A DNA stretch of 64,000 nucleotides from the NCBI RefSeq assembly GCF_026914265.1, contig NC_069123.1, positions 48,182,949 to 48,246,948 on the forward strand, given 5' to 3'. This document shows positions 16,868-40,974 of this stretch, one piece after another. This stretch comes from Mya arenaria. Lineage: Eukaryota > Mollusca > Bivalvia > Myida > Myidae. Position 1 is the stretch's first letter. Every line of letters starts with the position of its first letter. The translations under genes were made by a program, and so were the position numbers. The notes beneath the pieces were generated by a model. The model was not told the origin of the DNA. It was given only the letters and a program-made list of their open reading frames with translations, and did no database searches.

Positions 16868-17911
16868 TTATAAAGTACCGGAGACGTTAATAGTGCGATT
16901 GGCGGGCGTGGTCCACACGCGGTCGGGCTGAATACGGGATCTCAATATCCGGAAGAGCCTCTTCACCTCCTCCCGGAACCTGGAGCCCGTTAGGCAGTAC
17001 AACACGAAGTTGCACGAGTTGTTCGTGTACATGGCGAGGTTCACGACGGCCCACCAGGGGTCCTGCAGCTGGACAGCGCGTGGCACGTCTGACGGGATCC
17101 AATAAGGCTCGCCTATGAAGTAGACAGATACAGGCAGGGTAAAGATAATGAACATGAAGTTCAGACACACCAATACCACCGACATGTTGGAAGTCTTGTC
17201 TCTTGGGGCGTCCTGGTTCGCTGGCCTTATCCCATTTCCAACTTTTCGCCGACTTTGAAGAAGTTTGTATATGATACATACATTCCCCGCAGACAGTATT
17301 GCGAAAGGAACCAATGAAAATTTACACAAATCGATCCATGTCCATATTTTACCGAAGAAACGAGCATAGCTGTCGTTGACTGGAATGCATGACAAAGTGA
17401 TCGTCGAATTTCCTTCAATAATGTCAACATCTCCAAACCCATACAACAGGTTACAGTTCACCAGTAAAGCCAACAAAACAATGCCACCAACAGAAGCCTG
17501 AGCAAGTCGTTTCGAACAGATTCGCTTGCTTTTGTATGGACAAAGTGTCGCGACCAGGCGCTCCACGGTGATAGCAGTAAGTGTCCATACCGTCCAGTCC
17601 GACATGACGTACATGAGCCACCAGTGCATCTTGCAAACGGCTTCGGATGCGTGTCGGATGTCAAAGTCAAACGCATACTTCACCCATTGGCGGAGAAGAC
17701 CGATGTAAAGCATGCTGAGGTCGGCGGCTGCAAGCGCTAGCAGGAACACGGTAGATGCGGACCGGTTAAAGCGCGGTTTGGACAGCACGATAATGGTGAT
17801 GATGTTTCCGATGGTTCCCAGCACAATCAACACTGGGGAACAGACCTGCCACATGAGCACGCCGGCCCGCAGCTCCCGCCCCGAACGGAAGGAGCCATAG
17901 TCTTCACTCAT
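16868..17911 (-). CDS. Class A (rhodopsin-like) GPCR, tandem copy 1
   Basis: A single-exon 347-residue receptor, most likely for a peptide or small molecule; the ligand is unknown. Seven hydrophobic segments lie near residues 18-43, 54-75, 94-120, 136-157, 190-216, 243-267 and 285-308. Family marks are GTIGNI in TM1, LALAAAD (D64, 2.50) in TM2, a likely disulfide between C93 and C175, a glycosylation site NST168-170 in extracellular loop 2, and helix 8 RFREEVKRLF. Activation motifs are altered: ERL for DRY (117-119), FTLP without the toggle Trp (T258 at 6.48), and NFVLY for NPxxY (301-305). The start is the conserved ATG, preceded by an in-frame stop. It is about 94-95% identical to copies 2-4 by hand count and has private changes in the C-tail (residues 323-347). 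No symbol is assigned because the subfamily is not clear. Confidence 0.93.
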   Translation of the reverse strand: MSEDYGSFRSGRELRAGVLMWQVCSPVLIVLGTIGNIITIIVLSKPRFNRSASTVFLLALAAADLSMLYIGLLRQWVKYAFDFDIRHASEAVCKMHWWLMYVMSDWTVWTLTAITVERLVATLCPYKSKRICSKRLAQASVGGIVLLALLVNCNLLYGFGDVDIIEGNSTITLSCIPVNDSYARFFGKIWTWIDLCKFSLVPFAILSAGNVCIIYKLLQSRRKVGNGIRPANQDAPRDKTSNMSVVLVCLNFMFIIFTLPVSVYFIGEPYWIPSDVPRAVQLQDPWWAVVNLAMYTNNSCNFVLYCLTGSRFREEVKRLFRILRSRIQPDRVWTTPANRTINVSGTL

Positions 17912-17977
17912 TGTTCACAGTGAGAAGCAAGCTCTATTTGCACAGTAATATGGATAAATGACCACGTCCAGCAAGAC

Positions 17978-17984
17978 ATTTATA
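17978..17984 (-). promoter_or_regulatory. TATA box, GPCR copy 1
   Basis: TATAAAT on the minus strand, about 67 bases before the ATG, in the context cttgtataaatgtcttg. The same word at the same distance is kept upstream of all four receptor copies, which supports a real core promoter and a short 5' UTR. Confidence 0.65.
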
Positions 17985-18749
17985 CAAGCAGCACTAACAT
18001 CGCTGTTTTCGATATCCCACCCCTAAGCTTGGCATGAAACACAACACAGTCCTTCTGCAGCAAAAGTGTATTGGAAATTTATTTGAAGTTATCATTTGAC
18101 TTTCATCTTCATAATTGCTGTAATCTGATTCACCACGTGAGAGTCTAGCTTGTTAAACCTCATTCCCCTTCCCACTGTTCATTAGGCCCGCTATTAACAT
18201 GTTCATTACAAATAACATAGAGCAAAATGGAAACATTAATTTATCGGACATTTTATGACTTCCGCACGTCCGCACAAACATATCATTGCAAATAACATAC
18301 AATGGGCCCCCAGATTTCGCGTTAAACCTTTCACATTATGCACTCGGATACAGAAGCTACTGTATGTACTTCTACGTCACAACGACAATGGCGCCCATCA
18401 CATAGGTACATACTCTTTCACCCAAAATTGATGCCGAACTTGGAACGGTGACCCTGACCATGGAAGAAGGAGGTACAAACATTTCTTATTAGTGTTGTTT
18501 TGATGAGTTGTACATTTCACCAAGTTTCATCACTATAATATTGATGTATGAGGTTCAACCCTTGACATTAACCTTGAACTGACGCGATTCCTACACAGAT
18601 TGTTGTTGACCCAATTTTCGCCGGTAACAATTATGATTGTACCAGGTTTTTGTGTCGTTCGATTTGTTAATTGAATATATATTATTCTTCTTCCTAACGT
18701 TAGGACATTTTTGAACTGTATGTCATAAAACATATAAGATAATTCATTT

Positions 18750-18820
18750 GATGGATGGATGGGTGGATGGATGGGTCGGTGGGTGATTGGGTGTATGGAT
18801 GGATGGATAGATCGATCGAC
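18750..18820. repeat. (TGGA)n-like microsatellite
   Basis: Imperfect runs of tgga, tggg and tcgg tetranucleotides. A similar tract at 52666-52740 is followed by the same downstream sequence, so the two belong to one repeated segment. Confidence 0.9.
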
Positions 18821-19911
18821 TCTCTTCCAGCGTAACATCATTACTATTCATGATCTATTCTAATTTCCCATCAATTGAACACATTTTAGGTTAATCAATA
18901 TTTTCGATAAATAGCTTAGATTTGGTGTTGTCCAACATAATTAGGGTCGAAGCCTGATAGATTGTATTCTTTATAAAAAAATGTTTATATGAAGGGTGAG
19001 AGATATCAGACAGAGGCCAGCAGACATATTGGGACAGATATCAAATACCTCAAACAGGTCAATTACTTTAAACATAGCAGTTGTGGTGGCAAATATTCAA
19101 GTATGCATTTACCGATTTTATCACCTTAAGTCATACCATTAAATATATACAAAATTTTCTTCAATAACAATATATTAAAATACTTAATTTTGAATAATAC
19201 ATAATTGTCCATGGTTTATATCTGAAAATATGTAAACACAATCGTTAGATTTTTGCCTTATAATACCTGGAAATACAGAAGTTTAATTACGTATTAAGTA
19301 TTAATTTATTAGACACAAAATGAACCTTAAAGTTCGCGAAGCAGTGTGGTAGTTGGTCATACTTAAAAAAGATCGAAAATGATATTAATTCAGTTTATTT
19401 TCATGTTATGAAATTGCTACAGTTTTTTCACAACTCATTTCCTACTAAATTACTATTCATGAGCACCACAACCTATTCATTGGCACCACAACGTTCAGAA
19501 AATCGATCATAGTGCAGCAAGTATAACAAACAAAGATCTAAAATTTGTAACGCGGCAACCTTTTGTCAATAAAAAAAGTCACACACATGTAAAGAAAATG
19601 CTTAAACCTAAGGTACGAGAACAATTCTCACGAAAATCCAGATTTTTACGTTATCAACACTAACGTCTAGCAAGTTATACAAGTTCTAGACGATCAGATA
19701 TTAAATTTTACATTTAGAACAACTCATGGCCATTCCTATGTGGAACTACATTCTTCAATATTTTTTTTAATTACTCGTATAAACCTCTAAAAATGAAAAA
19801 TAAGAAACCACACTCACTTCATATTCCACTCATTGGCACTATTACGGAAAACGCGTTGGAGCATTTTCAACACATAAAAAAATGTTATGGCTCCAATGAT
19901 AACCCGTCGTA
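18821..19911. repeat. Repeated segment shared with 52741-53500
   Basis: From about 18830 the sequence tattcatgatctattctaat, then gaacacattttaggt, tagcttagatttggtgttgt and gaagggtgagagatatc recurs near 52770-52900 with few changes. The first few hundred bases are clearly homologous; beyond about 19160 the match is lost until the RT piece at 19915. No gene is seen. Confidence 0.6.
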
Positions 19912-20440
19912 TATATGCCTTTAAGGCTTGTTATCTAAGTTTGGAGATCTTGTTGATAAATTCAATAGCACTTTAAGATATATTGATGATATTCCAAGTT
20001 TGGATAATCCGGTATTTACAGATAATATGAAATCGATATAAGCTTCACAATTGCAACTTAATAAATCTAAAACATCCGATTTAAAAGCATCATATTTAGA
20101 TCTGCAACTCGAAGTAAAGGAAGATATATTGAGTATCAATCTTTATGATAAACGTGATTATTTAAAATAATTTATTACCCTTCTTTGGATGGAGATATTC
20201 CTAGTTTACCATCATATGGTGTTTTTATTGCACAGTTAATAAGATTTGGTAGAATATGTACAGATGTCAAAAATTTCAGCTCTCGCAGTGGCGGACAACT
20301 TCTAAAACAGGGTTTTAGATATTATAACTTATGGAAAACTTTCTCAAAATTCGAAATGGTCATTAATTTATTTTATCGAAGTACAATAGTAGTCTTAAAT
20401 CGCTGATTGCTAATAGTATTGCTCATTCCGATTTTTATGG
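19912..20440 (+). mobile_element. Retroelement reverse-transcriptase remnant
   Basis: A decayed plus-strand coding remnant has the words LRYIDDIPSLDNPVF, ASYLDLQLEV, LYDKRDYLK, YGVFIAQLIRFGRIC and LLKQGF. These follow in order the pattern of a reverse transcriptase common in bivalves and cnidarians (RYIDD catalytic box, then SYLDL, LYDKRD and YGVFISQLIRYAR). It resembles Penelope-type architecture, but the class is not certain. It is broken in several places. A second remnant lies at 53502-53705. Sequence to about 20960 may belong to the same element. Confidence 0.6.
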
Positions 20441-21111
20441 TGATGTTTAAAAAAAAATCGTAAAATTAAAATATTTCCAGGTAGGTAGTTGGGCAGACAG
20501 ACTCAATGAAATACTTGGATTTTAGTTAAATCGTGGATGTAATGGCAATACTTTGAAGAGTACTTGCCTCCTAGTTATAGAAGATGAATTCCTGAAACGA
20601 AACAAAATATAGGGTTGAATATATAGCATCCTTACATAACTAATCTTTCAGCCCTTCATGTTATCTTTAAAACCGTCTTTGGCTGACTCTATTAAGCTTT
20701 CATTCCTTTGATTTTATGAAGTTTGCAGATTTGTGTTATCTTTCAACCGTTTTTGGCTGCCTCGGAATGTTTTGGCATGTGACCTCATTTTCTTCAAATA
20801 TTTTACATAGGTTATCATTTGGAAGAAAAAATAAGCTAATATATGACGCTTTAATTTTTAATAATGCTTTCTTTATTTGTTCACAGTTTTAGTTCAATGA
20901 TGCTTTTCATTATGAAACGCTATGACCACACAGTTTTAAACCTTTTATTATCTAAGGTGTGTGATGCTCATAGTTTCAAACAATAACTGCATCGTATCTT
21001 TGAAAAGTTTTTGCATTAGGTATTCTTGCTTACCGGACATGTGTTTCCGGTCATATGACCAGTGCTGTAAAACCCGTCTTACACCCCCATGTATGATGAG
21101 TCACGCGCAAC
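20441..21111. other. No gene recognised
   Basis: Low-complexity AT-rich sequence, possibly the trailing part of the retroelement remnant. No separate feature is supported. Confidence 0.4.
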
Positions 21112-21340
21112 CAGTGCCGTAGCCAGACTTAAATAAACACCGAGGCAGAACAGTCTATAGGGGTGCGGGGTCAAGCTCCCCCCCCCCTGGATTTATTTTC
21201 AAGAAGCGATTTCCTGCATTCTGGAGTATCTTTGGTCGATGGTTTGTGTACATTGAGGCAAATGAAATAAATAAAAAAAGTTATTTTTAGAGCTATAAAA
21301 ATTGTTATACGCCCCAAAAATTAGTGTAGCTACGGCACTG
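21112..21340. mobile_element. 229-bp MITE with CAGTGCCGTAGC ends
   Basis: The left end cagtgccgtagccaga and the right end gtagctacggcactg form terminal inverted repeats of about 12 bp (CAGTGCCGTAGC). The element is flanked by gcaac on both sides (21107-21111 and 21341-21345). No coding capacity. The ends resemble hAT-like MITEs, but a 5-bp duplication is short for hAT (usually 8), so the superfamily is left open. Confidence 0.65.
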
Positions 21341-21495
21341 GCAACAACGCTCCACTTCTTATTTCTTTTATTGTATGGTTTATGAAAACTATAGTATGCC
21401 ATTTCAATAAAGCGCAATAAAATATATAATATGCAATCCTTTTTATTAAAATTGAAAATAAAGTATCGTAAAAACGCGATTTTAGAGGAACTATT

Positions 21496-21554
21496 TGACG
21501 TCAATTGTATTTGACGTCAATAGTGATTTAAAATTACTGCGCTTTATGACGTCA
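21496..21554. promoter_or_regulatory. Cluster of three perfect CRE palindromes
   Basis: TGACGTCA occurs at 21496-21503, 21512-21519 and 21547-21554, three copies in 59 bases. This is the binding palindrome of CREB/ATF-type bZIP factors. No promoter or gene is recognised next to it, so a regulatory role is inference. Confidence 0.4.
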
Positions 21555-21949
21555 GTAAACAAAGTCGAACGCGCTTTTTGGTGAAATGTACAAAAATGCG
21601 TTTTCAACGTCAATTTTAACACCAATTGATAATTTTAGATATGCAAGAAAAAATATCAATCATGTGTTTCCGGTCCGGATCGAAAAATTCAAGCCTTGGG
21701 CACGCTGCGTGACCGGTCACTCGGTAAGCCTCGTAACCGGCTTACGGATTTTTCTTTACGTAACGGAAATATTTGATAGATACTTATACTCTAAATTGTA
21801 TTCCTTCGTCCGCAGATAGAGTTGGAATCTCTAATCATTGAAGTACTTTGGGCTTTACCCATTAGTTTATTATTATTTGTTTTATTATTAAGTTTCCGCA
21901 AGTTAATGCATACTTTGATAATATTTACCTTTCGAGTATTTAGCTTATA

Positions 21950-22559: not shown

Positions 22560-22812
22560 AATTTCATTTTAACCCAATGATGAATTGGCAATGTTTGCAA
22601 TACAAAGCTAGTTTTCGTAGACATGCAGCATTTTCCGAGTTTAATAATTGAATGAATTTAAACATGCTTGGTCTTGCATAGTAAAATTTAGTCATTATAT
22701 TTCGGACAAATCAAAACAAAGTGATATTCATCTTCGATATCATTACGAACACATAAAACACATTTACGTTGATTTCTTTCAATATTACCATATCTGCCTC
22801 TTTCAACATTTA
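22560..22812 (-). mobile_element. LINE C-terminal fragment
   Basis: The minus strand reads ERGRYGNIERNQRKC, VLCVRNDIEDEYHFVL and ICPKYND, a CxxC...H....C zinc-binding tail typical of LINE reverse-transcriptase proteins, and then meets a stop. The fragment ends where the second GPCR unit begins (22815), so it sits on a duplication breakpoint. Confidence 0.6.
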
Positions 22813-24214
22813 ACCTTACAGGCCAAGGTATTCTGATTTGTGTGAGTTGAATGATGTCCCTAGGCAGTTAAATTCAGTGTTAACGCTCATAATTATCGTT
22901 TCTTGAAAACAATCACAGTTTACGTAGCGAAAATGGAAATTATATAGGGAGGCCCGCCTAAATGGATATACAGAGACACACCATTTTAAAGCGTATTAAA
23001 TAAATGGGCATTGTACGAAATCTTTTAGACTGGCGATTCTACGTCCCATAAATAAACACCACATAAATAAATCTTCTTCATCAGACCTAAAAATTAGCAA
23101 GTCCTGTCATAGCTCCCTGAACCACAGAGTTACATTTTGACCTTTAAAATAATATGTAAAAATAAATTCATGCCTTTATTGGCCGGTTTCCTCACTGTTG
23201 ACACTTAGAACCAGAGCAGTATGGATAAACTATTTTTTATTCAAAACAATCATGTCATTCGGTATATGGGATGTACTTTTAAAATGTTAAAAAGGGTATT
23301 ATGGTACGTTTATTCAGTAAGTATGGTACCAATAAATAGCATGCATTGCATATGTATTATATTCATGTTGTTGCATATCCTGTATAATGAATAAGTAATG
23401 AAACGAGTTTTGAGTTGAGTTTTTAATTAAAAAGGTTACCCTCTCAGGTAACCTATTTAGATTGAGAAAGCTACTTCTGACTGATATTTTGTTAAAGTCT
23501 GATTGATGCAAATAAATTATAGTTCTTATACTTTAAATTCAGTCCTATACCTGCATTGAAAATATAAAACAACATAAACTGTAACCGATAAATGCCTGTC
23601 ATAACCCAAGGAAAGGCACTGTAAATTTATGATTTTTTAATACAATTAGCAAGTTTCATAACAGTAACTGATAAATCTATATGAACTAGAATATATGAAC
23701 ATTGCTTTCATCTCAGAAGTTAATTGCTAGTGTAAAGTTAATTAAATGAAACCCGATATTGCCTAGTTACTGTTGTTTATAGATACAAACTATGAATAAC
23801 GACTGATTTTAAGTGTGTTGGCGTTTTGATTATTTGTAGTAGGTAAAATAAGACGGGGTATTTTAATCAACACATATATTTTCTGCGTAATTGTCTAGAA
23901 TGAGCTTTTTTGATCGGTTCCTTTCCAAGATTTATTTAAGCTTTGTCCGCTTAAATTTAATTTGCACTATTTTAAGCCGCATGGTAGCGTACGTCCCATT
24001 TATTAACCAACGCGCATTAATTCTTTTAAAATGTCAAAATATAGTTTATGAACGCGAAAACTAATGACAGGGAGATGAATAATGCCGAATCTTTCAAGAA
24101 AGGTAACTGGAGCAAGCGGTGCCTGACCAGGTTGGACAGATTGGCAAAATAGTGTAGATACACTACAGCTTCGCAGAGTGAGTAACTTCTACCCTTAGGA
24201 ACATTTGGTTTTCA

Positions 24215-24562
24215 GTGTACATGTATGGTCATGTGGTCGAGATACAGTGTAACTTAGAAACATTTGGTTTTCTGTGTACATGTATGGTCATGTGGTCGAG
24301 ATACAGTGCACAACATGTGTCTCCCATCATGGTCACATCGACACCAAATGTCGCACAATCTTCATTACGTGTCATAAAAATAGTCCATTCGCCTCACTGT
24401 TATAAATGTTGGAATTGCGTGTTGCATATGCAATATCCTGGGGGTTCTGAGCGTAGATCCAGCAAACAGATGCTATCATTAGTGTTAGAGATAGACTGTG
24501 TATATTTGGTTTCAATGAGGTATAGAAAGCACAATGTGGTGGTGACAAAAAAGTATTCATAA
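24215..24562 (+). other. Duplicated open frame of unknown status (unit 2)
   Basis: A 115-codon plus-strand frame has close counterparts at 29398-29745 (115 codons) and 37677-37955 (92 codons). They share NVAQSSL, VIKIVHSPHCYKCWNCVLH and the ending HNVVVTKKYS. An antisense frame is also open over much of the same bases. The first part lies in a doubled 62-bp motif (tgtatggtcatgtggtcgag twice) present in units 2 and 3 but single in unit 4. No domain is recognised. Because the whole units are very similar, an open frame in each copy is weak evidence for coding. Confidence 0.25.
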
Positions 24563-25339
24563 TCGTCTTTAAGCAAATAGTGAATGATAACTTTATTCCA
24601 AAATCTGAATAGTCGGATAAATGAATCTTCTAAAGCTACGTTCTATAGGTCATTTTTAAGCATATTCTAACATTGTGTGAAATATATAAAGCTGTTGTGA
24701 CCCAATAAGACTAAGCACCCATCATTTACATGTAGAAACTGGACGATGGTCAAATGAACGTAAAGAAAATTACTCAAACATGAGTACCATTTGTTGATGG
24801 ATTGTTATCTCCGATAAATATATAAGACGATATAGCATAATTATATCAAATATCCAATACACAGTTCAACTTATCCAGTCTGAAATGTTAGATTTTATAA
24901 GAAACTAAGCAGCATTAATACATGATGCTTTTGAAGTAAGAAAAAAACTAGTATCAGCGTAATCTAATCCTGGTGATTTTTTTTTGTAAGGATGCTATGC
25001 CAATTACGAACAATCTGGACGTTTTCGATAAACAAGTTTTAAAATCGAATTTATAATGTACACATACAACTCTACTATAGTTATAGTTTGACTTTAGGCT
25101 AGCAAAAGGGACATTACGTAATATACATATACATGCAACCATGTGGAAGCATATATCTGTTAGTATATGTTTTGTAAAAGATTAGTAAAATCGTCATCAA
25201 ACGCTTGTTATTCTTCTTTGTCATATTTCATTTTGAGCTGAAATAGTTTAGTAATATTGAAAGATGATACATTATTATACATGTATCTTCTTGTATATTT
25301 TAAATTGATTGAACTTGATATTACATTTTAAATTTAAAA

Positions 25340-25391
<52 letters not shown>

Positions 25392-25601
25392 GCATTACTT
25401 GTTTCTTATATGGGTGTATTCTCTCTGGCAGCATGTGTGAAAGATTCCTGTGAATATCTTGAACAGTTTTTGAGTTCTGTCAAAGGTTTATCTTTTTTAC
25501 ACCCCGCCACAGACGACGACGTCACCATGGCTACCAACATAACCTTCGAAAGGCATTCATTTATTCACTTTGGTTTAATTTACAAACAAAAACAAGAGTA
25601 A
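25340..25601 (+). CDS. Signal-peptide-like frame starting in an ATG microsatellite (unit 2)
   Basis: A perfect (GAT)n run of 17 triplets (25340-25390) reads as a string of methionines. It continues as IALLVSYMGVFSLAACVKD and SCEYLEQFLSS. The hydrophobic run ending SLAA followed by C looks like a secretion signal with its cleavage site. After KGLSF the three unit copies fall into different frames through a one-base length change in a T run, so the C-terminal half is not conserved. It could be the first exon of a small secreted protein or an accident of the microsatellite. Unit 1 lacks the whole segment. Confidence 0.3.
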
Positions 25602-25946
25602 AACATACTTTAAAATATCTGTATTTGGCATTAGGTGAACATTCAGTGATTTACAGAATGAGTGAAATAAGACTTAAGTGTACCATTTAGAACACATTTC
25701 TCATTTATATAAAACTGTGCCTTTTGAGATGAATAAAAAATAATAAAGAAGCATAATAATACGGCACAAATCGTCATCACATTTACTGTTCGGTTAGTGT
25801 GTTAACTTGTGGCAAGACAATCCAAATGGGTATGAAATGTCCAAACAATAGTGATATGATTGGTACAAACTTCCACATTATATCTGCAGATGAAACTTTC
25901 ATGTTCATGGTAAGAAACGCTTAAGTTTTGCGTACGGATACATTCA

Positions 25947-26460
25947 TTATACCCCCACAAACGAAGTTTTAAAGGGGTATATAGGAGTGAGCTGGTCGGT
26001 CGGTCGGTCGGTCTGTCGGTTTTCATGGTTTCCGGACGATAACTCATGAAAGGCTTGACAGATTTGAAAATATTTTGGTACACAGGTGTAACATCAGAAG
26101 ATACAGGTAAAGTTCGATATTGGGGCTGGTGGGGCCAAGGTCAAGGTCACTGTTACTAAAAATAGAAAAACGGTCCGGACGATAACTCATGAAAGGCTAA
26201 ATGGATTTGAACAATTTTTGGTACACAGGTGTAACATCAGAAGATACAGATCAATATCGATATTGGGGCTGGTGGGGTCAAGGTCACTGTTACTTAAAAT
26301 AGAAAAATGGTTTCTGGACGATAACTCATGAAAGGCTTGACAGATTTGAACATTTGTTGGCAGTAACCTTGGAGTTATGGCCTCTTTTCAAAGGAATGGT
26401 TTGCCATTCCTGTGTCCAGGCGGCATTTGGGGGTATTCGTCACTCCTGTGACAGCTCTAG
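25947..26460 (+). mobile_element. Helitron-like non-autonomous element with internal repeats
   Basis: A 514-bp insertion absent from unit 3 (empty site at 31162/31163). Host bases cattca and ttttgtttac flank it and join exactly in unit 3, which fits insertion between A and T with no duplication. The 3' end has a hairpin GTCAC-TCCT-GTGAC (26439-26452) 8 bases before a terminal CTAG, as in Helitrons. Near the 5' end is a short (GGTC)n tract. The core holds about three tandem copies of a roughly 140-bp unit starting cggacgataactcatgaaag (near 26032, 26173 and 26315). This architecture recalls the bivalve pearl-type elements. The 5' end is TTATACCCCC, not the canonical TC. A 2-bp TT duplication with an ATAC start is an equally good reading. 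Confidence 0.65.
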
Positions 26461-26996
26461 TTTTGTTTACTTTGTTCAAGCTAAAGTTTAAATTTGAATA
26501 CACGTTTACTATATTAACGTGACCATAAGAATTGTTTTTGTTCTTGGAACGATGGACGGAATTCCTATATCAGTGACGGATTTAGGCAGTTGTCAAACAT
26601 GTAGATAACCTTTGACCTGTAACATTCACTGCACTACGGTGGCCAGTACCCACACAGCTATGGTAGGTGTAGTAAGTACATTATCACACTGAACGTTTCA
26701 ACTGCCACACGAGTTATCGTCCTATTTTGTCAACGAATCCATTCGGCGGTTTTCCTTAAAAGACTAAGATCCAAACAGCGACAAGGTCAAGTTGCCAGAT
26801 GCATGAAAGATGTCAACAACAATTATGAATGGAAATAACAGTCGATATATATTTTGATTAACGAGTAAAAGGATAGCTGTACCTTATGCATTTGTTAAAA
26901 TGTGTTCATATTTTGCAATAGCAAGCACAAGTTATTTAAAATAAGGCTATCGTTTTGTATTCATCAATCCTCCTCTATTCAGTTTTACTAGAATCA

Positions 26997-27002
26997 TTTA
27001 TT
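26997..27002 (-). terminator. Poly(A) signal, GPCR copy 2
   Basis: AATAAA on the minus strand, about 140 bases beyond the stop, at the position kept in the other units. Confidence 0.5.
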
Positions 27003-27139
27003 CGCTAACAATGTTTAACACATATTTTCTCAGTTTCACCAAAGGATGTTAACCAGAGGTGTTTTTTTCAATATCAAACTTAAACACTGTTTAAAAAAAT
27101 GGAGTTAAAACTTCAAATGATTTAATCCAAGCAATTTGT

Positions 27140-28183
27140 TTATATAGTACCGGAGACGTTGAAAGTGCGATTGGCGGACGTGGCCAACACGCGGTCGGGC
27201 TGAACAGTGGATCTCCATATCCGGAACAGCCTCTTCACCTCCTCCCGGAACCTGGAGCCCGTTAGGCAGTACAACACGAAGTTGCACGAGTTGTTCGTGT
27301 ACATGGCGAGGTTCACGACGGCCCACCAGGGGTCCTGCAGCTGGACAGCGCGTGGCACGTCTGCCGGGATCCAATATGGCTCGCCTATGAAGTAGACAGA
27401 TACAGGCAGGGTAAAGATAATGAACATGAAGTTCAGACACACCAATACCACCGACATGTTGGAGGTCTTGTCTCTTGGGGCGTCCTGGTTCGCTGGCCTT
27501 ATCCCATTTCCAACTTTTCGCCGACTTTGAAGAAGTTTGTATATGATACATACATTCCCCGCAGACAGTATTGCGAAAGGAACCAGTGAAAATTTACACA
27601 AGTCGATCCATGTCCATATTTTACCGAAGAAACGAGCATAGCTGTCGTTGACTGGAATGCATGACAAAGTGATCGTCGAATTTCCTTCAGTTATTTCAAC
27701 ATCTCCAAACCCATACAACAGGTTACAGTTCACCAGTAAAGCCGACAAAACAATGCCGCCAACAGCAGCTTGAGCAAGGCGTTTCGAACAGATCCTTTTG
27801 CTTTTGTATGGCCAAAGTGTCGCGATCAGGCGCTCCACGGTGATGGCAGTGAGTGTCCATACAGTCCAGTCCGACATGACGTACATGAGCCACCAATGCA
27901 TCTTGCAAACGGCTTCGGACGCGTGTCGGATGTCAAAGTCAAACGCATACTTGACCCATTGGCGGAGAAGACCGATGTAAAGCATGCTGAGGTCGGCGGC
28001 TGCGAGCGCCAGCAGGAACACGGTAGATGCGGACCGGTTAAAGCGCGGTTTTGACAGCACGATAATGGTGATGATATTTCCGATGGTTCCCAGCACAATC
28101 AACACTGGGGAACAGACCTGCCACATGAGCACGCCGGCCCGCAGCTCCCGCCCCGAACGGAAGGAGCTATAGTCTTCACTCAT
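27140..28183 (-). CDS. Class A GPCR, tandem copy 2
   Basis: Intact 347-residue paralogue with the seven-TM layout and altered motifs of copy 1 (ERL, FTLP, NFVLY; C93-C175; NST168). By hand count it differs from copy 3 at about 8 residues and from copy 1 at about 16. It has A63 and the pair MS at 103-104 like copy 1, but I120, W124 and S147 like copy 3, so it is a mosaic. Private residues include T165, A274, T326 and F341. An in-frame TGA two codons before the ATG fixes the start. Confidence 0.93.
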   Translation of the reverse strand: MSEDYSSFRSGRELRAGVLMWQVCSPVLIVLGTIGNIITIIVLSKPRFNRSASTVFLLALAAADLSMLYIGLLRQWVKYAFDFDIRHASEAVCKMHWWLMYVMSDWTVWTLTAITVERLIATLWPYKSKRICSKRLAQAAVGGIVLSALLVNCNLLYGFGDVEITEGNSTITLSCIPVNDSYARFFGKIWTWIDLCKFSLVPFAILSAGNVCIIYKLLQSRRKVGNGIRPANQDAPRDKTSNMSVVLVCLNFMFIIFTLPVSVYFIGEPYWIPADVPRAVQLQDPWWAVVNLAMYTNNSCNFVLYCLTGSRFREEVKRLFRIWRSTVQPDRVLATSANRTFNVSGTI

Positions 28184-28249
28184 TGTTCACAGTGATAAGT
28201 AAGCCGTAGTTGCACAGTAATATGGATAAATGACCACGTCCAGCAAGAT

Positions 28250-28256
28250 ATTTATA
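28250..28256 (-). promoter_or_regulatory. TATA box, GPCR copy 2
   Basis: TATAAAT on the minus strand, 67 bases before the ATG, in the same setting as in copy 1 (cttgtataaatatcttg). Confidence 0.65.
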
Positions 28257-28735
28257 CAAGCAGCACTTACATCGCTGTAACCGATATCTCATCCATCAGC
28301 TTGTCATGAAATACAACACAGTCCCTCTGCAGCAAAAATTGTATTGGAAATATTGTAATGGTTAAAGTATTCATTTGATTTTCATCTCCATAATTGCTGT
28401 AATCTGATTTACCACGTAAGAGTCTAGCTTGTTAAACCTCATTCCCCTTCCCACTGTTCATTAGGCCCGCTATAAACATGCTCATAACAAATAAAACAGA
28501 GCAAAATGGGAACATTAGATTATCGGACCTTTTATGACTTCCACTCGTTCGCACAAACATATCATTGCAAATAACATAAAATGAGGCCCCAGATTTCCCG
28601 TGAAACCTAAGACATTAGACAGAAGCATCTTAATATAATGCCATGTCATAATGACAATGACCAACCACATAGATTTGCGCGTCCCCTTTTATCCAAATTG
28701 GATGCCGGACCAAGACCGGTGACCAAGACCATGCC

Positions 28736-29234: not shown

Positions 29235-29397
29235 AGCCGATTCCTAATGACAGGGAGACGAATAATGACGAAACTTTCAAGAAAGGTAACTGGAGCAAGC
29301 GGTGCCTGACCAGGTTGGACAGATTGACAAAATAGTGTAGATATACTACAGCTTTGCAAAGTGAGTAACTTCTACCCTTAGGAACATTTGGTTTTCA

Positions 29398-29745
29398 GTG
29401 TACGTGTATGGTCATGTGGTCGAGATACAGTGTAACTTAGAAACATTTGGTTTTCAGTGTACATGTATGGTCATGTGGTCGAGATACAGTGCACAACATG
29501 TGTCTCCCATCATGGTCACATCGACACCAAATGTTGCACAATCTTCATTACATGTCATAAAAATAGTCCATTCGCCTCACTGTTATAAATGTTGGAATTG
29601 CGTGTTGCATATGCAATATCCTGGGGGTTCTGAGCGTAGATCCTGCAAACAGATTGTATCATTAGTGTTCGGGACAGACTGTGTAATTTTGGTTTCAATG
29701 GGCTATAGAAAGCACAATGTGGTGGTGACAAAAAAGTATTCATAA
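29398..29745 (+). other. Duplicated open frame of unknown status (unit 3)
   Basis: Counterpart of 24215-24562 with the same 115-codon length and the shared core VIKIVHSPHCYKCWNCVLH. Differences from unit 2 are scattered (for example CKQIVSLVFGTDCVILV). Coding status is undecided. Confidence 0.25.
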
Positions 29746-30522
29746 TCATCTTGAAGCAAATAGTGAATGAAAACTTTATTCCAAAATCTGAATAGTCGGA
29801 TAAATGAATCTTCTAAACCTACGTTCTATAGGTCATTTTTAAGCATATTCTAACATAGTGTTGAAATATATAAAACTGTTGTGACCCAATAAGACTAAGC
29901 ACCCATCATTTACATGTAGAAACAGGACGATGGTCAAATGTACGTAAAGAAAATTACTCAAACATGAGTACCATTTGTTGATGGATTGTTATCTGCGATA
30001 AATATATAAGACGATATAACAGAATTATATCAAATATGCAATACACGGTTCAACTTATCCAGTCTGAAATGTTAGATTTTATAAGAAACTAAGCAGCATT
30101 CATACATAATGCTTTTGAAGTAAGAAAAAACTAGTGTCAGCGTAATCTAATCCTGGTGATTTTTTTTGTAAGGATACTATGACAATTACGAACAATCTGG
30201 ACGTTTTCGATAAACAAGTTTTAAAATCGAATTTATAATGTACACATACAACTCTACTATAGTTATAGTTTGACTTTAGGCTAGCAAAAGGGACATTTCG
30301 TAATATACATATACATGCAACCATGTGGAAGCATATATCTGTTAGTATATGTTTTGTAAAAGATTAGTAAAATGGTCAACAAACGCTTGTTATTCTTATT
30401 TGTCATATTTCATTTTGAGCTGAAATAGTTTAGTATTATTGAAAGATAATATATTATTATATATGTATCTTCTTGTATATTTGAAATTGTTTAAACTTGA
30501 TATTACATTTTAAATTTAAAAA

Positions 30523-30605
<83 letters not shown>

Positions 30606-30818
30606 GCATTACTTGTTGTTTCTTATATGGGTGTATTCTCTCTGGCAGCATGTGTGAAAGATTCCTGTGAATATCTTGAACAGTTTTTTAGTTCTGGCAA
30701 AGGTTTATCTTTTTTTACACCCCGCCACAGACGACGACGTCACCATGGCTACCAACATAACCTTCGAAAGGCATTCATTTATTCACTTTGGTTAATTTAC
30801 AAACAAAAACAAGAGTAA
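30523..30818 (+). CDS. Signal-peptide-like frame starting in an ATG microsatellite (unit 3)
   Basis: The ATG run is longer than in unit 2 and broken once near 30567, where the continuous methionine string starts. It then reads IALLVVSYMGVFSLAACVKD and SCEYLEQFFSSGKGLSF. The tail goes on in a basic frame (PRHRRRRHHGYQ) that unit 4 shares and unit 2 does not. The signal-like N-terminus is the only part common to all three. Confidence 0.3.
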
Positions 30819-31141
30819 AACATACTTTAAAATATCTGTATTTGGCATTAAGTGAACATTCAGTGATTTACAGAATTTGTGAAATAAGACTTAAGTGTAC
30901 CATTTAGAACACATTTCTCAATTATATAAAACTGTGCCTTTTGAGATGAATAAAAAAAATATAGAAGCATAATAAAACGGCACAAATCGTCATCACATTT
31001 ACTGTTCGGTTAGTGTGTAAACTTGTGGCAAGAAAATCCAAATGGGTATGAAATGTCCAAACAATAGTGATATGATTGGTACAAACTTCCACATTATATC
31101 TGCAGATGAAACTTTCATGTTCATAGTACGAAACGCTTAAG

Positions 31142-32290
31142 TTTCGCGTACGGATACATTCATTTTGTTTACTTTGTTCAAGCTAAAATCAAACTTGAAA
31201 TTAAATGTGTTGTAAGTATGGAACTTTTCATTAAATTTGTATACACGTTTATCATTAAATTTGTATACACGTTTACTATATTAACGTGACCATAAGTGTT
31301 TTTTTGTTCTTGGAACGATGGACGGAATTCCTATATCAGTGACGGATTTAGGCAGTTGTCAAACATGTAGATAACCTTTGACCTGTAACATTCACTGCAG
31401 TACGGTGGCCAGTACCCACACAGCTATGGTAGGTGTAGTAAGTACATTATCACACTGAACGTTTCAAACAACTGCCACACGAGTTACCGTCCTGTTTTGT
31501 CAACGAATCCATTCGGCGGGTTTCCTTAAAAGGCTAAGACCCAACAGCGACAAGGTCAAGTTGCCAGATGCATGAAAGATGTCAACAACAATTATGAATG
31601 GAAATTTCAGTCGATATATATTTTGATTAACGAGTAAAAGGATAGCTGTACCTTATGCATTTGTTAAAATGTGTTCATATTTTGCAATAGCAAGCACAAG
31701 TTACGTAAAGTAAGGCGTACGTATACATTCTATTTGTTTACATTGTTCAAGCTAAAATCAAACTTGAAATTAAATGTGTTGTAAGTATGGAACTTTTCAT
31801 TAAATTTGAATACACGTTTACTATATTAACGTGACCATAAGTGTGTGTGTTTTTTGTTCTTGGAACGATGGACGGAATTCCTATATCAGTGACGGATTTA
31901 GGCGGCTGTCAAACATGTAGATAATCTTTGACCTGTAACATTCAGTGCAGTACGGTGGCCAGTACCGATACAGCTATGGTAGGTGTAGTAAGTACATTAT
32001 CACACTGAACGTTTAAACTGCCACACGAGTTACTGTCCTGTTTTGTCAACGAATCCCTTTGGCGGTTTTCCTTCAAAGTCTAAGGGTCAAACAGCGACAA
32101 GGTCAAGTTGTCAGATGCTCGAAAAATGTCAACAACAATTATGAATGGAAAGTTTAGTCGATATTGATTAACGAGTGAAAGGTTAGCTGTACCTTATTCA
32201 TTTGTTAAAATGTGTTCATATTTAGCAATACCAAGCACAGGTTACGTAAAGTAAGGCTATCGTTTTGTATTCATCAATCCTCCTCTATTC
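31142..32290. repeat. Doubled GPCR 3' flank inside unit 3, 566-bp period
   Basis: Two flank copies in direct order, both starting cgtac..atacatt and containing caagctaaaatcaaacttga. Diagnostic differences assign the first to the unit-2 type and the second to the unit-4 type. Confidence 0.9.
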
Positions 32291-32306
32291 AGTTTTACTA
32301 AAATCA

Positions 32307-32312
32307 TTTATT
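32307..32312 (-). terminator. Poly(A) signal, GPCR copy 3
   Basis: AATAAA on the minus strand, about 140 bases beyond the stop; equivalent to the signals in the other units. Confidence 0.5.
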
Positions 32313-32449
32313 CGCTAACAATGTTAAACACATATTTTCTCAGTTTCACCAAAGGATGTGAACCAGAGGTGTTTTTTTCAATATCAAACTTAAACACTGT
32401 TTAAAAAAAAAGATTTTAAACTTCAAATGATTTAATCCAAGCAATTTGT

Positions 32450-33493
32450 TTATATAGTACCAGAGACGTTGGCAGTGCGATTGGCGGACGTGGCCAACAC
32501 GCGGTCGGGCTGAACACGGGATCTCCATATCCGGAACAGCCTCTTCACCTCCTCCCGGAACCTGGAGCCCGTTAGGCAGTACAACACGAAGTTGCACGAG
32601 TTGTTCGTGTACATGGCGAGGTTCACGACGGCCCACCAGGGGTCCTGCAGCTGGACAGCGCGTGGCACGTCTGACGGGATCCAATAAGGCTCGCCTATGA
32701 AGTAGACAGATACAGGCAGGGTAAAGATAATGAACATGAAGTTTAGACACACCAATACCACCGACATGTTGGAGGTCTTGTCTCTTGGGGCGTCCTGGTT
32801 CGCTGGCCTTATCCCATTTCCAACTTTTCGCCGACTTTGAAGAAGTTTGTATATGATACATAGATTCCCCGCAGACAGTATTGCGAAAGGAACCAGTGAA
32901 AATTTACACAAGTCAATCCATGTCCATATTTTACCGAAGAAACGAGCATAGCTGTCGTTGACTGGAATGCATGACAAAGTGATTGTCGAATTTCCTTCAA
33001 TTATTTCAACATCTCCAAACCCATACAACAGGTTACAGTTCACCAGTAAAGCCGACAAAACAATGCCGCCAACAGCAGCTTGAGCAAGTCGTTTCGAACA
33101 GATCCGTTTGCTTTTGTATGGCCAAAGTGTCGCGATCAGGCGCTCCACGGTGATGGCAGTGAGTGTCCATACCGTCCAGTCCGCAATGACGTACATGAGC
33201 CACCAATGCATCTTGCAGACGGCTTCGGACGCGTGTCGGATGTCAAAGTCAAACGCATACTTCACCCATTGGCGGAGAAGACCAATGTAAAGCATGCTGA
33301 GGTCGCCGGCTGCGAGCGCCAGCAGGAACACGGTAGATGCGGACCGGTTAAAGCGTGGTTTTGACAGCACGATAATGGTGATGATATTTCCAATGGTTCC
33401 CAGCACAATCAACACTGGGGAACAGACTTGCCACATGAGCACGCCGGCACGCAGCTCCCGCCCCGAACGGAAGGAGCTATAGTCTTCACTCAT
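32450..33493 (-). CDS. Class A GPCR, tandem copy 3
   Basis: Intact 347-residue paralogue. It has G63 and A341 like copy 4 but I120, W124 and S147 like copy 2, and the private pair IA at 103-104 and L211. The frame is open for 21 further codons upstream to an ATG at 33556, because one base change turns the upstream TGA of the other copies into TGT. The conserved ATG at 33493 is preferred: it sits where the other three copies start, while the longer start lies beside the TATA box. If the upstream ATG were used, the protein would gain an N-terminus containing YPYYCATRACLSLCT. Confidence 0.92.
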   Translation of the reverse strand: MSEDYSSFRSGRELRAGVLMWQVCSPVLIVLGTIGNIITIIVLSKPRFNRSASTVFLLALAAGDLSMLYIGLLRQWVKYAFDFDIRHASEAVCKMHWWLMYVIADWTVWTLTAITVERLIATLWPYKSKRICSKRLAQAAVGGIVLSALLVNCNLLYGFGDVEIIEGNSTITLSCIPVNDSYARFFGKIWTWIDLCKFSLVPFAILSAGNLCIIYKLLQSRRKVGNGIRPANQDAPRDKTSNMSVVLVCLNFMFIIFTLPVSVYFIGEPYWIPSDVPRAVQLQDPWWAVVNLAMYTNNSCNFVLYCLTGSRFREEVKRLFRIWRSRVQPDRVLATSANRTANVSGTI

Positions 33494-33559
33494 TGTACAC
33501 AGTGATAAGCAAGCCCTAGTTGCACAGTAATATGGATAAATGACCACGTCCAGCAAGAT

Positions 33560-33566
33560 ATTTATA
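33560..33566 (-). promoter_or_regulatory. TATA box, GPCR copy 3
   Basis: TATAAAT on the minus strand, 67 bases before the conserved ATG. Confidence 0.65.
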
Positions 33567-34229
33567 CAAGCAACACTTACATCGCTGTAACCGATATCTC
33601 ATCCATCAGCTTGTCATGAAACACAACACAGTCCCTCTGCAGCAAAAAGTGTATTGGAAATATTGTAATGGTTAAAGTAATCATTTGTCGTTCATCTCCA
33701 TAATTGCTGTAATCTGATTTACCACGTAAGAGTCTAGCTTGTTAAACCTCATTCCCCTTCCCACTGTTCATTAGGCCCGCTATAAACATGTTCATAACAA
33801 ATAACACAGAGAAAAATGGAAACATTAGATTAACGGACCTTTTATGACTTCCGCTCGTCCGCACAAACATATCATTGCAAATACTATAAAATGAGGCCCC
33901 TGATTTCCCGTGAAACCTAAGACATTACGCAATCGGAAACAGAATCAACTTTATATACTACCATGTCATAACGACAATGACCCACCACATATATTTGCAC
34001 GTCCCCTTTTATCCAAATTGGATGCCGGACTTGGAACGGTGACCAAGACTACGAGTTAGGAGGTACACACATTTATTATGCTGTTGATTTATTGAGTAGT
34101 ACATTTCACATAGTTTCATCCCTTTCATTAAAGTATGTGGGATGTTCGAACCTTGAATCAAGTACTGTGACATTGTCGTCGGACTGACGCGATACTAACA
34201 CAGATTCCTGTTGACCCACTTTGTCTGTT

Positions 34230-36035: not shown

Positions 36036-37676
36036 TTTCATCTATATAATACAGCATTACTACATGACGATTATGCCACAAAAAATAGAAGCGCACGCGT
36101 TCTTATTCTTTAGATTTAATAGTTCCCTATAATTCATACTTCCCATGAAAAAGTGATAATCGATAACATACATGCATCAAACAGTTCATAATATGCCTAG
36201 GTGTAAACTCGATTCTATTTTACTTTATTTAATAACATATTCATAGCCTTAAGGCTTTACTGGCCAAGGTATTCTGATTTGTGTGAGTTAAATGATGTCA
36301 CTAGGCAGTTAAATTCAGTGTAAACGCTCATAATTATTGTTTCTTGAAAACAATCACAGTTTACGTAGCGACAATTGAAATTATATTGGGAGGCCCGCCT
36401 AAGTGGCTATACAAAGACACACCATTTTAAAGCGTATAAAATAAATGGGCATTGTACGAAATGTTTTAGGCTGGCGATTCTACATCCCTTAAATAAACAC
36501 TTCATAAATAAATATCTTCTTCAGTGTTGACAAAAAAAACATCAGACATAAAAATTTGCAAGTTCTGGCATAGCTTCCTTTACCACAGTGTTACGTTTTG
36601 ACCTTTAAAGTAATATGCAAAAATAAATCCATGCATTTGTTGATCAGTTTCCTTATTGTTTACACCTAGAACCACAGCAGTATGGATAAACAATTGTTTT
36701 ATTCAAAACAATTATGTCATTCGGTCAATGGGATGTACTTTTAAAATATTAAAAAGGGTCTTATGGTACGTTAATTAATTCAGTATGATACCAATTATTA
36801 ACATGCGTTTTATATATATATTCTAGTCATGTTGTTGCACATCTTGTATCCTGATTAAGTAATGAAACGAGTTTAGCGTTGAGTTATTAATAAATACTTA
36901 TTACCAGGTTACCCTCTCTATATTCAGATTGAGAATGCCACTGATATTTTTTTAAGTTTGATCGATGCAAATAATTCATAGTTGTTATACTTTAAATTCG
37001 GTCCTATACCTGTACTCAATGATAATTTTTAAACAACATCAACTGTAACCGATAAATGCCTGTCATAACCTAAGAAAAGGCACTGTAAGTTGGTGATGTT
37101 TTGATACAATTAGCAAGTTTCATAACAGTAACTGATAAAGCTATATGTACTAGAATATATGAACATTGCTTTCATTTCGGAAGTTAATTGCGAGTTTAAA
37201 GTTACATATAACCCGATATCGCCTAGTTACTGTTGTTTATAGATACAAACTATGAATTACGACTGAATTGAAGTGTGTTGACGTTTTGATTATTTGTAGT
37301 AGGTGAAGTAAGACGGGGTATATTAATCAACACACATATATTTTCAAAGTAATCTAGAATGAGCTATTTTGATCGGTTCCTTACCAAGATTTATTAAAGC
37401 TTTGTCCGCTTGCTTTCAAATTTAATTCGCACTATTCTAAGCCACATGACACCGTACGTCCCATTTAGTAACTACCGCCCATTAATTATTTTAAAATGTC
37501 AAACTATAGTTCATGAACGCAAAAACTACTGACAGGGAGAGGAATAATGACATAACTTTCAAGAAAGGTTACTGGAGCAAGCGGTGTCCGACCAGGTTGA
37601 ACAGATTGTGTAGATACAATACAGCTTCGCAGAGTAACTTCTACCCTTAGGAACATTTGGTTTTCAGTGTACATGT

Positions 37677-37955
37677 ATGGTCATGTGGTCGAGATACAGT
37701 GTACAACATTTGTCTCCCACCATGGTCACATCTACACCAAATGTCGCACAATCAACATTACATGTCATAAAAATAGTCCATTCGCCTCACTGTTATAAAT
37801 GTTGGAATTGCGTGTTGCATATGCAATATTCTGGGATTTCTGAGCGTAAATCCAGCAAGCAGATGCTACCATTAGTGTTAAGGACAGGCTGTGTAAATTT
37901 TGTTTCAATGATGTATGGTATGCACAATGTGGTGGTGACAAAAAAGTACTCATAA
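37677..37955 (+). other. Duplicated open frame of unknown status (unit 4)
   Basis: Shorter counterpart of the frames at 24215 and 29398. It starts within the single copy of the 62-bp motif and keeps VIKIVHSPHCYKCWNCVLH and the HNVVVTKKYS ending. Confidence 0.25.
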
Positions 37956-38603
37956 TCTTCTTTAAGAAAATATTGAATGATAACTTTATTCCAAAATCGT
38001 CGGATAAATGTACCATATACAGCTACGTTGTACATGAGTACCATTTGTTGATGGATTGTTATCTGCGATAAATAAATAAGAAGATATAACAGAATTATAT
38101 CAAATATGCAATACACAGTTCAACGTATGCAGTCTGAATTGTTAGTTTTGTAAGAAACTAAGCAGCATTCATACATGACGCTTTTGAAGTAAGAAAAAAC
38201 TAGTGTCAGCGTAATCTAATCCTGGAGATTTTTGTCTTTTTTTGTAAAGATACTATGACAATTACGAACAATCTGGACGTTTTCGATAAACAAGGTATAA
38301 AATAGAATATATAATGTACACATACAACTCTACTATAGTTATAGTTTGACTTTATGCTAGTAAACGGGACATTACGTACAGTATATATACATGCAACAAT
38401 GTGGAAGTATATATCTGTTAGTATACTATATGTTTTGTAAAAGATTAGTAAAATCGTCAACAAACGCTTTTTATTCTTATTTGTCATATTTCATTTTGAG
38501 CTGAAATAGTTTAGTAATAATTAAAGATAATATGTTATTATACATGTATCTTCTTGTATATTTGAAATTGATTAAACTTGATTTTACATTTTAAATTTAA
38601 AAA

Positions 38604-38648
<45 letters not shown>

Positions 38649-38849
38649 GCATTACTTGTTGTTTCTTATATGGGTGTATTGTCTCTGGCAACATGTGTGA
38701 AAGATTCCTGTGAATATCTTGAACAGTTTTTGAGTTCTGGCAAAGGTTTATCTTTTTTTACACCCCGCCACAGACGACGACGTCACCAAGGCTACCAAAA
38801 TAACCAGAATCTATCTTCGAAAGGCATTCATTTATTCACTTTGGTTTAA
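38604..38849 (+). CDS. Signal-peptide-like frame starting in an ATG microsatellite (unit 4)
   Basis: About 14 ATG triplets followed by IALLVVSYMGVLSLATCVKD and SCEYLEQFLSSGKGLSF. The basic PRHRRRRHQGYQ stretch is as in unit 3 and the terminus then differs. Two replacements (F to L, A to T) fall in the hydrophobic and cleavage region. Confidence 0.3.
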
Positions 38850-39789
38850 TTTACAAACAAAAACAAGAGTGAAAAATCCTTGAAAATATCTATATTTGGC
38901 ATTAAGTGAACATTCAGTGATTTACAGATCGTGTGAAATAATACTTAAGTGTACCATTTAGAACACATTTCTCAATTATATAAAACTGTGCCCTTTAAGA
39001 GGAATAATAAAATAATGTAGAAGCATAATAAAACGGCACAATCGTCATCACATTTACTGTTCGTTTAGTGTGTAAACTTGTGGCAAGAAAAATCCAAATG
39101 GGTATAAAATGTCCAAACCATATTGATATGATTGGTACAAACTTCCACATAATATTTGCATACAAAACTTTCATGTTCATAGTACGAAACGCTTACGTTT
39201 CGCGTACGTATACATTCTATTTGTTTACATTGTTCAAGCTAAAATCAAACTTGAAATTAAATGTGTTGTAAGTATGGAACTTTTCATTAAATTTGAATAC
39301 ACGTTTACTATATTAACGTGACCATAAGTGTTTTTTTTGTTCTTGGAACGATGGACGGAATTCCTATAACAGTGACGGATTTAGGCGGCTGTCAAACATG
39401 TAGATAATCTTTGACCTGTAACATTCAGTGCAGTACGGTGGCCAGTACCCACACAGCTATGGTAGGTGTAGTAAGTACATTATCACACTGAACGTTTAAA
39501 CTGTCACACGAGTTACCGTCCTGTTTTGTCAACGAATCCCTTTGGCGGTTTTCCTTTAAAGTCTAAGGGTCAAACAGCGACAAGGTCAAGTTGTCAGATG
39601 CTCGAAAAATGTCAACAACAATTATGAATGGAAATTTTAGTCGATATTGATTAACGAGTGAAAGGTTAGCTGTACCTTATTCATTTGTTAAAATGTGTTC
39701 ATATTTAGCAATACCAAGCACAAGTTACGTAAAGTAAGGCTATCGTTTTGTATTCATCAATCCTCCTCTATTCAGTTTTACCAGAATCG

Positions 39790-39795
39790 TTTATT
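39790..39795 (-). terminator. Poly(A) signal, GPCR copy 4
   Basis: AATAAA on the minus strand, about 140 bases beyond the stop, at the conserved position. Confidence 0.5.
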
Positions 39796-39930
39796 CGCCA
39801 ACAATGTTTAACACATATTTTCTCAGTTTCACCAATGGATATGAATCAGTGGTGTTTTTCAATATCAAACTTAAACACTGTTAAAAAGAAAGGAGTTAAC
39901 ACTTCAAATGATTAAATCCAAGCAATTTGT

Positions 39931-40974
39931 TTATATAGTACCGGAAACGTTGGCAGTGCGATTGGCGGACGTGGCCAACACGCGGTCAGACTGAACACGG
40001 GATCTCCAGATCCGGAACAGCCTCTTCACCTCCTCCCGGAACCTGGAGCCCGTTAGGCAGTACAACACGAAGTTGCACGAGTTGTTCGTGTACATGGCGA
40101 GGTTCACGACCGCCCACCAGGGGTCCTGCAGCTGGACAGCGCGTGGCACGTCTGACGGGATCCAATAAGGCTCGCCTATAAGGTAGACCGATACAGGCAG
40201 GGTAAAGATAATGAACATGAAGTTAAGACACACCAATACCACCGACATGTTGGAGGTCTTGTCTCTTGGGGCGTCCTGGTTCGCTGGCCTTATCCCATTT
40301 CCAACTTTTCGCCGACTTTGAAGAAGTTTGTATATGATACATACATTCCCCGCAGACAGTATTGCAAAAGGAACCAGTGAAAACTTACACAAGTCGATCC
40401 ATGTCCATATTTTACCGAAGAAACGAGCATAGCTGTCGTTGACTGGAATGCATGACAAAGTGATCGTCGAATTTCCGTCAATAATTTCAACATCTCCGAA
40501 CCCATACAACAGGTTACAGTTCACCAGTAAAGCCAACAAAACAATGCCGCCAACAGCAGCTTGAGCAAGTCGTTTCGAACAGATCCGTTTGCTTTTGTAT
40601 GGACAAAGTGTCGCGACCAGGCGCTCCACGGTGATAGCATTAAGTGTCCATACCGTCCAGTCCCCAGTGACGTACATGAGCCACCAATGCATCTTGCAGA
40701 TGGCTTCGGACGCGTGTCGGATGTCAAAGTGAAACGTATACTTGACCCATTGGCGTAGAAGACCGATATAAAGCATGCTGAGGTCGCCTGCTGCGAGCGC
40801 CAGCAGGAACACGGTAGATGCGGACCGGTTAAAGCGCGGTTTGGACAGCACGATAATGGTTATGATGTTCCCGATGGTTCCCAGCACAATCAACACTGGG
40901 GAACAGACCTGCCACATGATCACGCCGGCCCGCAGCTCCCACCCCGAACGGAAGGAGCTATAGTCTTCACTCAT
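39931..40974 (-). CDS. Class A GPCR, tandem copy 4
   Basis: Intact 347-residue paralogue. It shares G63 and A341 with copy 3 but V120, C124 and L147 with copy 1. It has the most private changes in and near the membrane: W12, I19, T80, H82, I92, the pair TG at 103-104, N112, D166, L265 and S329. The ERL, FTLP and NFVLY motifs and the disulfide cysteines are kept. W12 replaces an arginine in the extracellular N-terminus and N112 lies inside TM3, so ligand or signalling properties may differ. Confidence 0.93.
   Translation of the reverse strand: MSEDYSSFRSGWELRAGVIMWQVCSPVLIVLGTIGNIITIIVLSKPRFNRSASTVFLLALAAGDLSMLYIGLLRQWVKYTFHFDIRHASEAICKMHWWLMYVTGDWTVWTLNAITVERLVATLCPYKSKRICSKRLAQAAVGGIVLLALLVNCNLLYGFGDVEIIDGNSTITLSCIPVNDSYARFFGKIWTWIDLCKFSLVPFAILSAGNVCIIYKLLQSRRKVGNGIRPANQDAPRDKTSNMSVVLVCLNFMFIIFTLPVSVYLIGEPYWIPSDVPRAVQLQDPWWAVVNLAMYTNNSCNFVLYCLTGSRFREEVKRLFRIWRSRVQSDRVLATSANRTANVSGTI

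Follow-up and report, generated by a model that had tools for sequence, protein, structure and literature searches.

A tandem array of four receptor genes

The 64,000-nucleotide stretch of the bivalve Mya arenaria analysed here (referred to as the window; RefSeq assembly GCF_026914265.1, contig NC_069123.1, positions 48,182,949 to 48,246,948 of the forward strand) carries on its minus strand a tandem array of four open reading frames (ORFs) of 347 codons each, all intact and stop-terminated: copy 1 (16868..17911), copy 2 (27140..28183), copy 3 (32450..33493) and copy 4 (39931..40974). In a gap-free alignment the copies show 95-98% identity to copy 2, which bears out the four intact genes of a preliminary description made from the sequence alone. 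The same description had called the genes single-exon, which holds for the coding part; the untranslated regions may contain introns. Pfam was scanned with copies 1 and 4, which match 7tm_1 over residues 35-305 with 66.6 bits (E 3.3e-18) and 63.9 bits (E 2.1e-17), respectively (cut-off 30.5), and copies 2 and 3 were assigned by their identity. On this match above the cut-off, the four genes are classified as class A (rhodopsin-like) G-protein-coupled receptors (GPCRs). Canonical motifs of this class are D/ERY, CWxP and NPxxY, none of which occurs in any of the four copies; at the motif positions all four have E117-R118-L119 (ERL), F257-T-L-P260 (FTLP) and N301-F-V-L-Y305 (NFVLY). Such departures are known within class A and alone do not exclude membership. 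The best-matching sequences in PDB are those of NTSR1 (neurotensin receptor 1; E 2.8e-11 with copy 2) and GHSR (ghrelin receptor), with E values of about 1e-10 to 1e-11, and the galanin, motilin and tachykinin receptors score close behind in this comparison of sequence matches.

The ratio of nonsynonymous to synonymous substitution rates (dN/dS), which the preliminary description had suggested as a check, ranges from 0.15 to 0.26 in all six copy pairs; the frames have therefore been kept by purifying selection. Many of the private amino-acid changes of copy 1 lie in its C-terminal tail (codons 319-347), where the nonsynonymous rate is close to the synonymous one (pair 1-3: 8/130 and 3/42).

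Self-blastn and alignment place each gene within a longer duplicated unit on the minus strand, the units having homologous flanks and the same orientation. Unit 1 (13931..19060) shows patchy homology to the others at its low-coordinate end, unit 2 spans 22809..28733, and unit 3 (29244..34222) extends less far at its low-coordinate end than do units 2 and 4. Unit 4 (36041..43434), supported also by the sequence at both edges, is interrupted by approximately 1.7 kb (about 41311-43032) that are not present in units 1-3; an ORF at the edge of this insertion (41308-41610) has no Pfam match. A tblastn search of the window for further copies returned the four genes only, all other hits having E values of 1.2 or worse. 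In a protein search of the complete assembly (1,216,080,610 bases in 18 contigs), in which 117 of 773 candidates were scored and 130 matches listed, only the four array copies exceeded 90% identity over the full length among the scored candidates, and the next-best matches, 59% and 58% identical, are about 17.7 Mb distant from the array on its own contig. None of 30 pattern matches to relatives in viral contigs was confirmed, and Rfam yielded no match.

Conflicting sites within the coding sequence

Within the coding sequence (CDS), 80 of 1044 positions are variable and 14 divide the copies two against two, with eight supporting 1+4 against 2+3, five supporting 1+2 against 3+4 and one supporting 1+3 against 2+4. 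Followed along the CDS, the partner of copy 1 at these sites is copy 4, 4, 2, 3, 2, 2, 2, 4, 4, 4, 4, 4, 4 and 2, and synonymous sites are found on both sides of the conflict. The four residues singled out in the preliminary description have the states given there: copies 1 to 4 have A, A, G, G at residue 63, V, I, I, V at residue 120, C, W, W, C at residue 124 and L, S, S, L at residue 147. We simulated evolution on a single tree under 8 settings (2 trees, each with 4 levels of rate heterogeneity; 2000 simulations per setting) and obtained on average 0.8-2.6 conflicting CDS sites, compared with 6 observed (p 0.001-0.044 in 8 of 8 settings).

The polarity of these residues was assessed with four distant paralogues, L005 to L008 (59, 58, 50 and 51% identical). 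Residue 63 is Ala in all four, and Gly is therefore derived in copies 3 and 4. Relative to the nearest outgroup, L005 (Val, Cys), but to that one only, Ile120 and Trp124 of copies 2 and 3 look derived; across L005 to L008, residue 120 is V, V, I, I and residue 124 is C, F, R, R. Residue 147 was uninformative for polarity in this comparison.

Changing relationships across genes and flanks

Extending the comparison to relative positions -540 to +1810 raised the number of two-against-two sites to 44, of which 25 support 1+4 against 2+3, 15 support 1+2 against 3+4 and 4 support 1+3 against 2+4. The sites are not evenly mixed: upstream of the genes, 14 of 16 support 2+3, and in the 3' flank the last 10 (relative positions 1308-1793) all support 3+4. 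The order of the labels over gene and flanks departs from chance with both statistics used (p 1e-4, 20,000 shuffles). With 200 further downstream alignment columns added to this block, there are 49 two-against-two sites, 20 of them conflicting, and in the single-tree simulations their clustering has p values of 0.001-0.004 in 8 of 8 settings and their number p values of 0.001-0.091 across settings. A GENECONV-style test (our own implementation rather than the program GENECONV) on the block singled out pair 3-4, with a global p of 0.024 when no mismatches were permitted and 0.001 when they were. An apparent closeness of copies 1 and 4 near alignment columns 6900-7050 was set aside, the alignment of copy 2 being poor there. 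Label order, simulations, the GENECONV-style test and the duplicated segment described below all indicate that different stretches of gene and flanks follow different trees beyond chance, and that for copies 2, 3 and 4 the nearest relative changes from stretch to stretch.

A duplicated segment behind copy 3

Behind copy 3, which is a mosaic relative to copies 2 and 4 by its site partitions, a 3' segment of about 540 bp is present twice, side by side. The version designated 3L (31146..31716, minus strand) resembles copy 2, with 14/458 differences to unit 2 and 30/537 to unit 4, and the version designated 3R (31715..32257, minus strand) resembles copy 4, with 9/552 differences to unit 4 and 39/467 to unit 2; 3L and 3R differ from each other at 34/537 positions. 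All 19 two-against-two sites in the segment group copy 2 with 3L and 3R with copy 4. The two versions meet at 31715/31716, at a 2-bp GC common to both parent sequences, and the site list and alignment place the switch of unit 3 from 4-like to 2-like sequence within 32231..32299 (minus strand), an interval that also includes position 32257, where the duplicated segment has its edge. A change-point scan detected the same scar as a step in the divergence of pair 3-4 at relative position 1195/1196 (p 0.003).

Over the scar, copies 2 and 4 are as distant as in other stretches (39/486), the 2-3 distance is raised (46/491) and the 3-4 distance is lowered (9/527). Unit 3 is therefore the recipient, and these distances identify a copy-4-like unit as the evident donor of the exchange in the 3' flank. 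Outside the scar, copies 2 and 3 differ by 3.1-5.9% at silent and flanking sites, compared with 1.6% between 3R and unit 4, so copies 2 and 3 had already split when this exchange took place. The preliminary description had spoken of ongoing exchange, which is not borne out: one exchange postdates the 2-3 split and nothing places any in the present.

How conversion and duplication came to share this site can be pictured in two ways. A single repair event is a tentative proposal, possible rather than probable: unit 3 would have invaded unit 4, with about 540 bp copied from a homologous point approximately 190 bp past the stop codon, and synthesis would have re-entered unit 3 out of register by re-annealing through the 2-bp match, duplicating the segment in the same step. 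If so, one event at the scar produced both the gene conversion and the tandem duplication, and conversion with slippage could regularly create local duplications inside receptor arrays. A tandem duplication within unit 3, the gene-proximal half of which was later overwritten by conversion from unit 4, has a chance only a little short of even. In favour of two events, 2-bp junctions are a common feature of tandem duplications, and the far end of the conversion tract would coincide with the end of homology in any case; against them, the near end of the tract and the duplication edge share one 68-bp interval, which separate events would produce only by coincidence, and no unit with an unconverted duplication was found within this array.

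The scar also bears on whether the array is an assembly artefact, with alleles or mis-joined contigs placed in tandem and the scar representing a false join of overlapping pieces. The join at 31715/31716, with about 540 bp present twice, does look like an unmerged overlap. Elsewhere in the assembly, four pairs of GPCR loci (L009/L010, L011/L012, L013/L014 and L015/L016), selected for near-equal scores, lie approximately 1 to 1.6 Mb apart, each pair on one contig, with an identity of 97.8-99.85% along 5-8 kb. Two of the pairs are inverted, and the four could be retained haplotypes or recent large duplications. If they are retained haplotypes, however, allelic divergence amounts to 0.15-2.2%, which is below that between copies 2 and 3 (and copy 1 differs by up to 22% from the others) and is also exceeded by the difference between 3L and 3R. 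Furthermore, the differing unit lengths and the insertion confined to unit 4 fit old paralogues better than tandem alleles, the window contains no N, and the array lies on one of the 18 contigs with no additional copy above 90% identity among the scored candidates. Divergence and unit structure thus lower the probability of an artefact, without removing it, to a level that we consider improbable.

A divergence step in copy 1

The second boundary concerns copy 1. A change-point scan of silent or non-coding sites at which copies 2, 3 and 4 agree located a step at 16849..16850 (minus strand), 18 bp past the stop codon (relative position 1062/1063), where the divergence of copy 1 rises from 5.5% (n=489) to 17.7% (n=745) beyond; the p value of 0.002 is the floor of the 500 permutations. 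The control pair 2-4 shows no comparable step (p 0.89), nor does pair 2-3 (p 0.34). Comparison of 4-fold sites with the 3' flank gave Fisher p values of 2e-5, 4e-4 and 7e-4 for copy 1 against copies 2, 3 and 4, respectively, compared with 0.87 for the 2-4 control, which speaks against relaxed synonymous constraint having produced the step. Copy 1 would thus be composed of a younger 5' part joined to an older 3' part, a structure that either a crossover or a tract of conversion would explain. A two-ended conversion tract over the upstream region and CDS of copy 1 is not claimed, the second end being invisible and the upstream region fast-evolving in all pairs.

Probable exchange between the units

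Judged from the sequence, the array very probably reflects non-allelic homologous recombination, that is, gene conversion and/or unequal crossing-over, among tandem genes under purifying selection. The four paralogous class A GPCR genes would have arisen by segmental duplication, pieces would then have moved between units by one or both of these routes, and purifying selection would have kept the reading frames open meanwhile. The older conflict in the CDS (nt 188-310) is probably due to the same kind of process, acting between copies 3 and 4 or between copies 1 and 2; a recent conversion of this stretch from copy 4 to copy 3 was rejected, as will be seen from their divergence.

Several results weigh against exchange. 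Within the CDS, the clustering statistic of the simulations is not significant (gain 0 with p 1.0 under every one of the 8 settings), and neither are the label-order tests (p 0.095 and 0.73) nor the GENECONV-style test (best global p 0.09, pair 1-2, nt 34-311). In the approximately unbiased (AU) test, 1+3 against 2+4 is the one tree rejected by the whole CDS (p 0.0075), leaving both 1+2 against 3+4 (p 0.36) and 1+4 against 2+3 unrejected, and on the whole block 1+2 against 3+4 is likewise unrejected at 5% (p 0.077). By segment, the AU test favours 2+3 upstream (other trees p 0.0008 and 0.008), rejects 1+4 against 2+3 in nt 160-325 (p 0.005) and favours it in nt 326-1041 (1+2 against 3+4, p 0.051), with segments picked post hoc when the sites were already known. 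Of the 123 positions of nt 188-310, 8 differ between copies 3 and 4 and 3 between copies 1 and 2. The conflict count on the block is weak in two settings (p 0.046 and 0.091), and at residues 120 and 124 not every one of L006 to L008 shares the state of L005. As for copy 1, only one boundary is visible, all pairs evolve fast far upstream (2-4, 22%), and a faster rate in its 3' flank may be the source of the step.

The nonsignificant order and GENECONV-style tests on the CDS would be expected if one tree fitted all sites and the conflicting ones were parallel mutations, some perhaps selected, and extreme rate heterogeneity generates up to 2.6 conflicting CDS sites in the simulations. Nevertheless, we regard this explanation as very improbable: gene and flanks together reject a single tree by label order, clustering and the GENECONV-style test, the conflict is also carried by synonymous sites, and the 19 concordant sites of the non-coding duplicated segment are not reasonably attributed to parallel mutation.

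Exchange between the units therefore remains our preferred explanation, with the evidence distributed differently from that in the preliminary description, which had deduced exchange from the four residues. Their pattern, like that of the CDS as a whole, is real and suggestive but no proof of exchange: 6 of the 14 sites conflict, in excess of the simulations, whereas the order-based and GENECONV-style tests reach significance for gene and flanks and not for the CDS alone. It is mainly the flanks that support exchange, through the segment behind copy 3, the step in copy 1 and the order tests on gene plus flanks. More generally, where four copies are nearly identical, residue patterns in their coding part carry too little information to prove exchange, which flanks are able to do, and gene trees of the receptor family to which the array belongs should be built per segment.

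Relation to known systems

The process is of a known kind, to which this case adds no more than a new example. In the available part of the respective report, the V1R pheromone-receptor clusters of the mouse are described as having undergone duplications and deletions, with gene conversion inferred among neighbouring genes (PMC2644715). The array resembles them in being a cluster of GPCR genes with exchange between neighbours; unlike in that vertebrate family, for which the same part of the report relies on dS across species and on trees, two versions of a segment here adjoin in one unit (PMC2644715). Partial gene conversion has likewise been proposed, in the part of the source consulted, for the duplicated LWS opsins of poeciliid fishes, which are also duplicated class A receptors, although that part describes no counterpart of the duplicated 3' segment (PMC3087554). 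The cephalopod GPCRs share with the array tandem expansion in an invertebrate; the accessible portion of the work mentions gene conversion a single time, as something that might lead to new regulation, and presents no site-level test of exchange (PMC6408891). For segmental duplications in yeast, the portion of the study at hand describes break-induced replication and microhomology-mediated template switching (PMC2518615); a replication-based duplication with a short match at the join would be shared with the scar, if the mechanism suggested here applies, but the yeast matches are 5-10 bp long and the duplications mostly far larger, compared with 2 bp and about 540 bp here (PMC2518615). No paper on the array itself was found, only these general parallels, in a literature search that did not use the species name and hence says little. 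The array provides a clean, small example, from outside the vertebrates, of exchange among receptor genes in tandem, and one of its junctions can be read to the base.

Other elements in the window

A 57-bp tandem repeat with more than 15 copies (239-1286) has long open stretches on both strands. Two retrotransposons of the long interspersed nuclear element (LINE) type lie on the minus strand. The first (6246-9587) retains one open frame of 1114 amino acids with endonuclease and reverse transcriptase domains and, near the start of the frame, the motif SGDIHPNPGP, which we take to resemble a 2A-like sequence. The second (47112-51427) is decayed into several frames, with a reverse transcriptase piece at 49227-49835 and a weak endonuclease match, below the cut-off, at 50603-51043; it lies within the stretch 43434-52541, across which homology with the sequence upstream of copy 1 is interrupted. 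Finally, a tubulin C-terminal exon (59600-60496, minus strand; Pfam Tubulin_C) is presumably of the alpha type, judging by its end.

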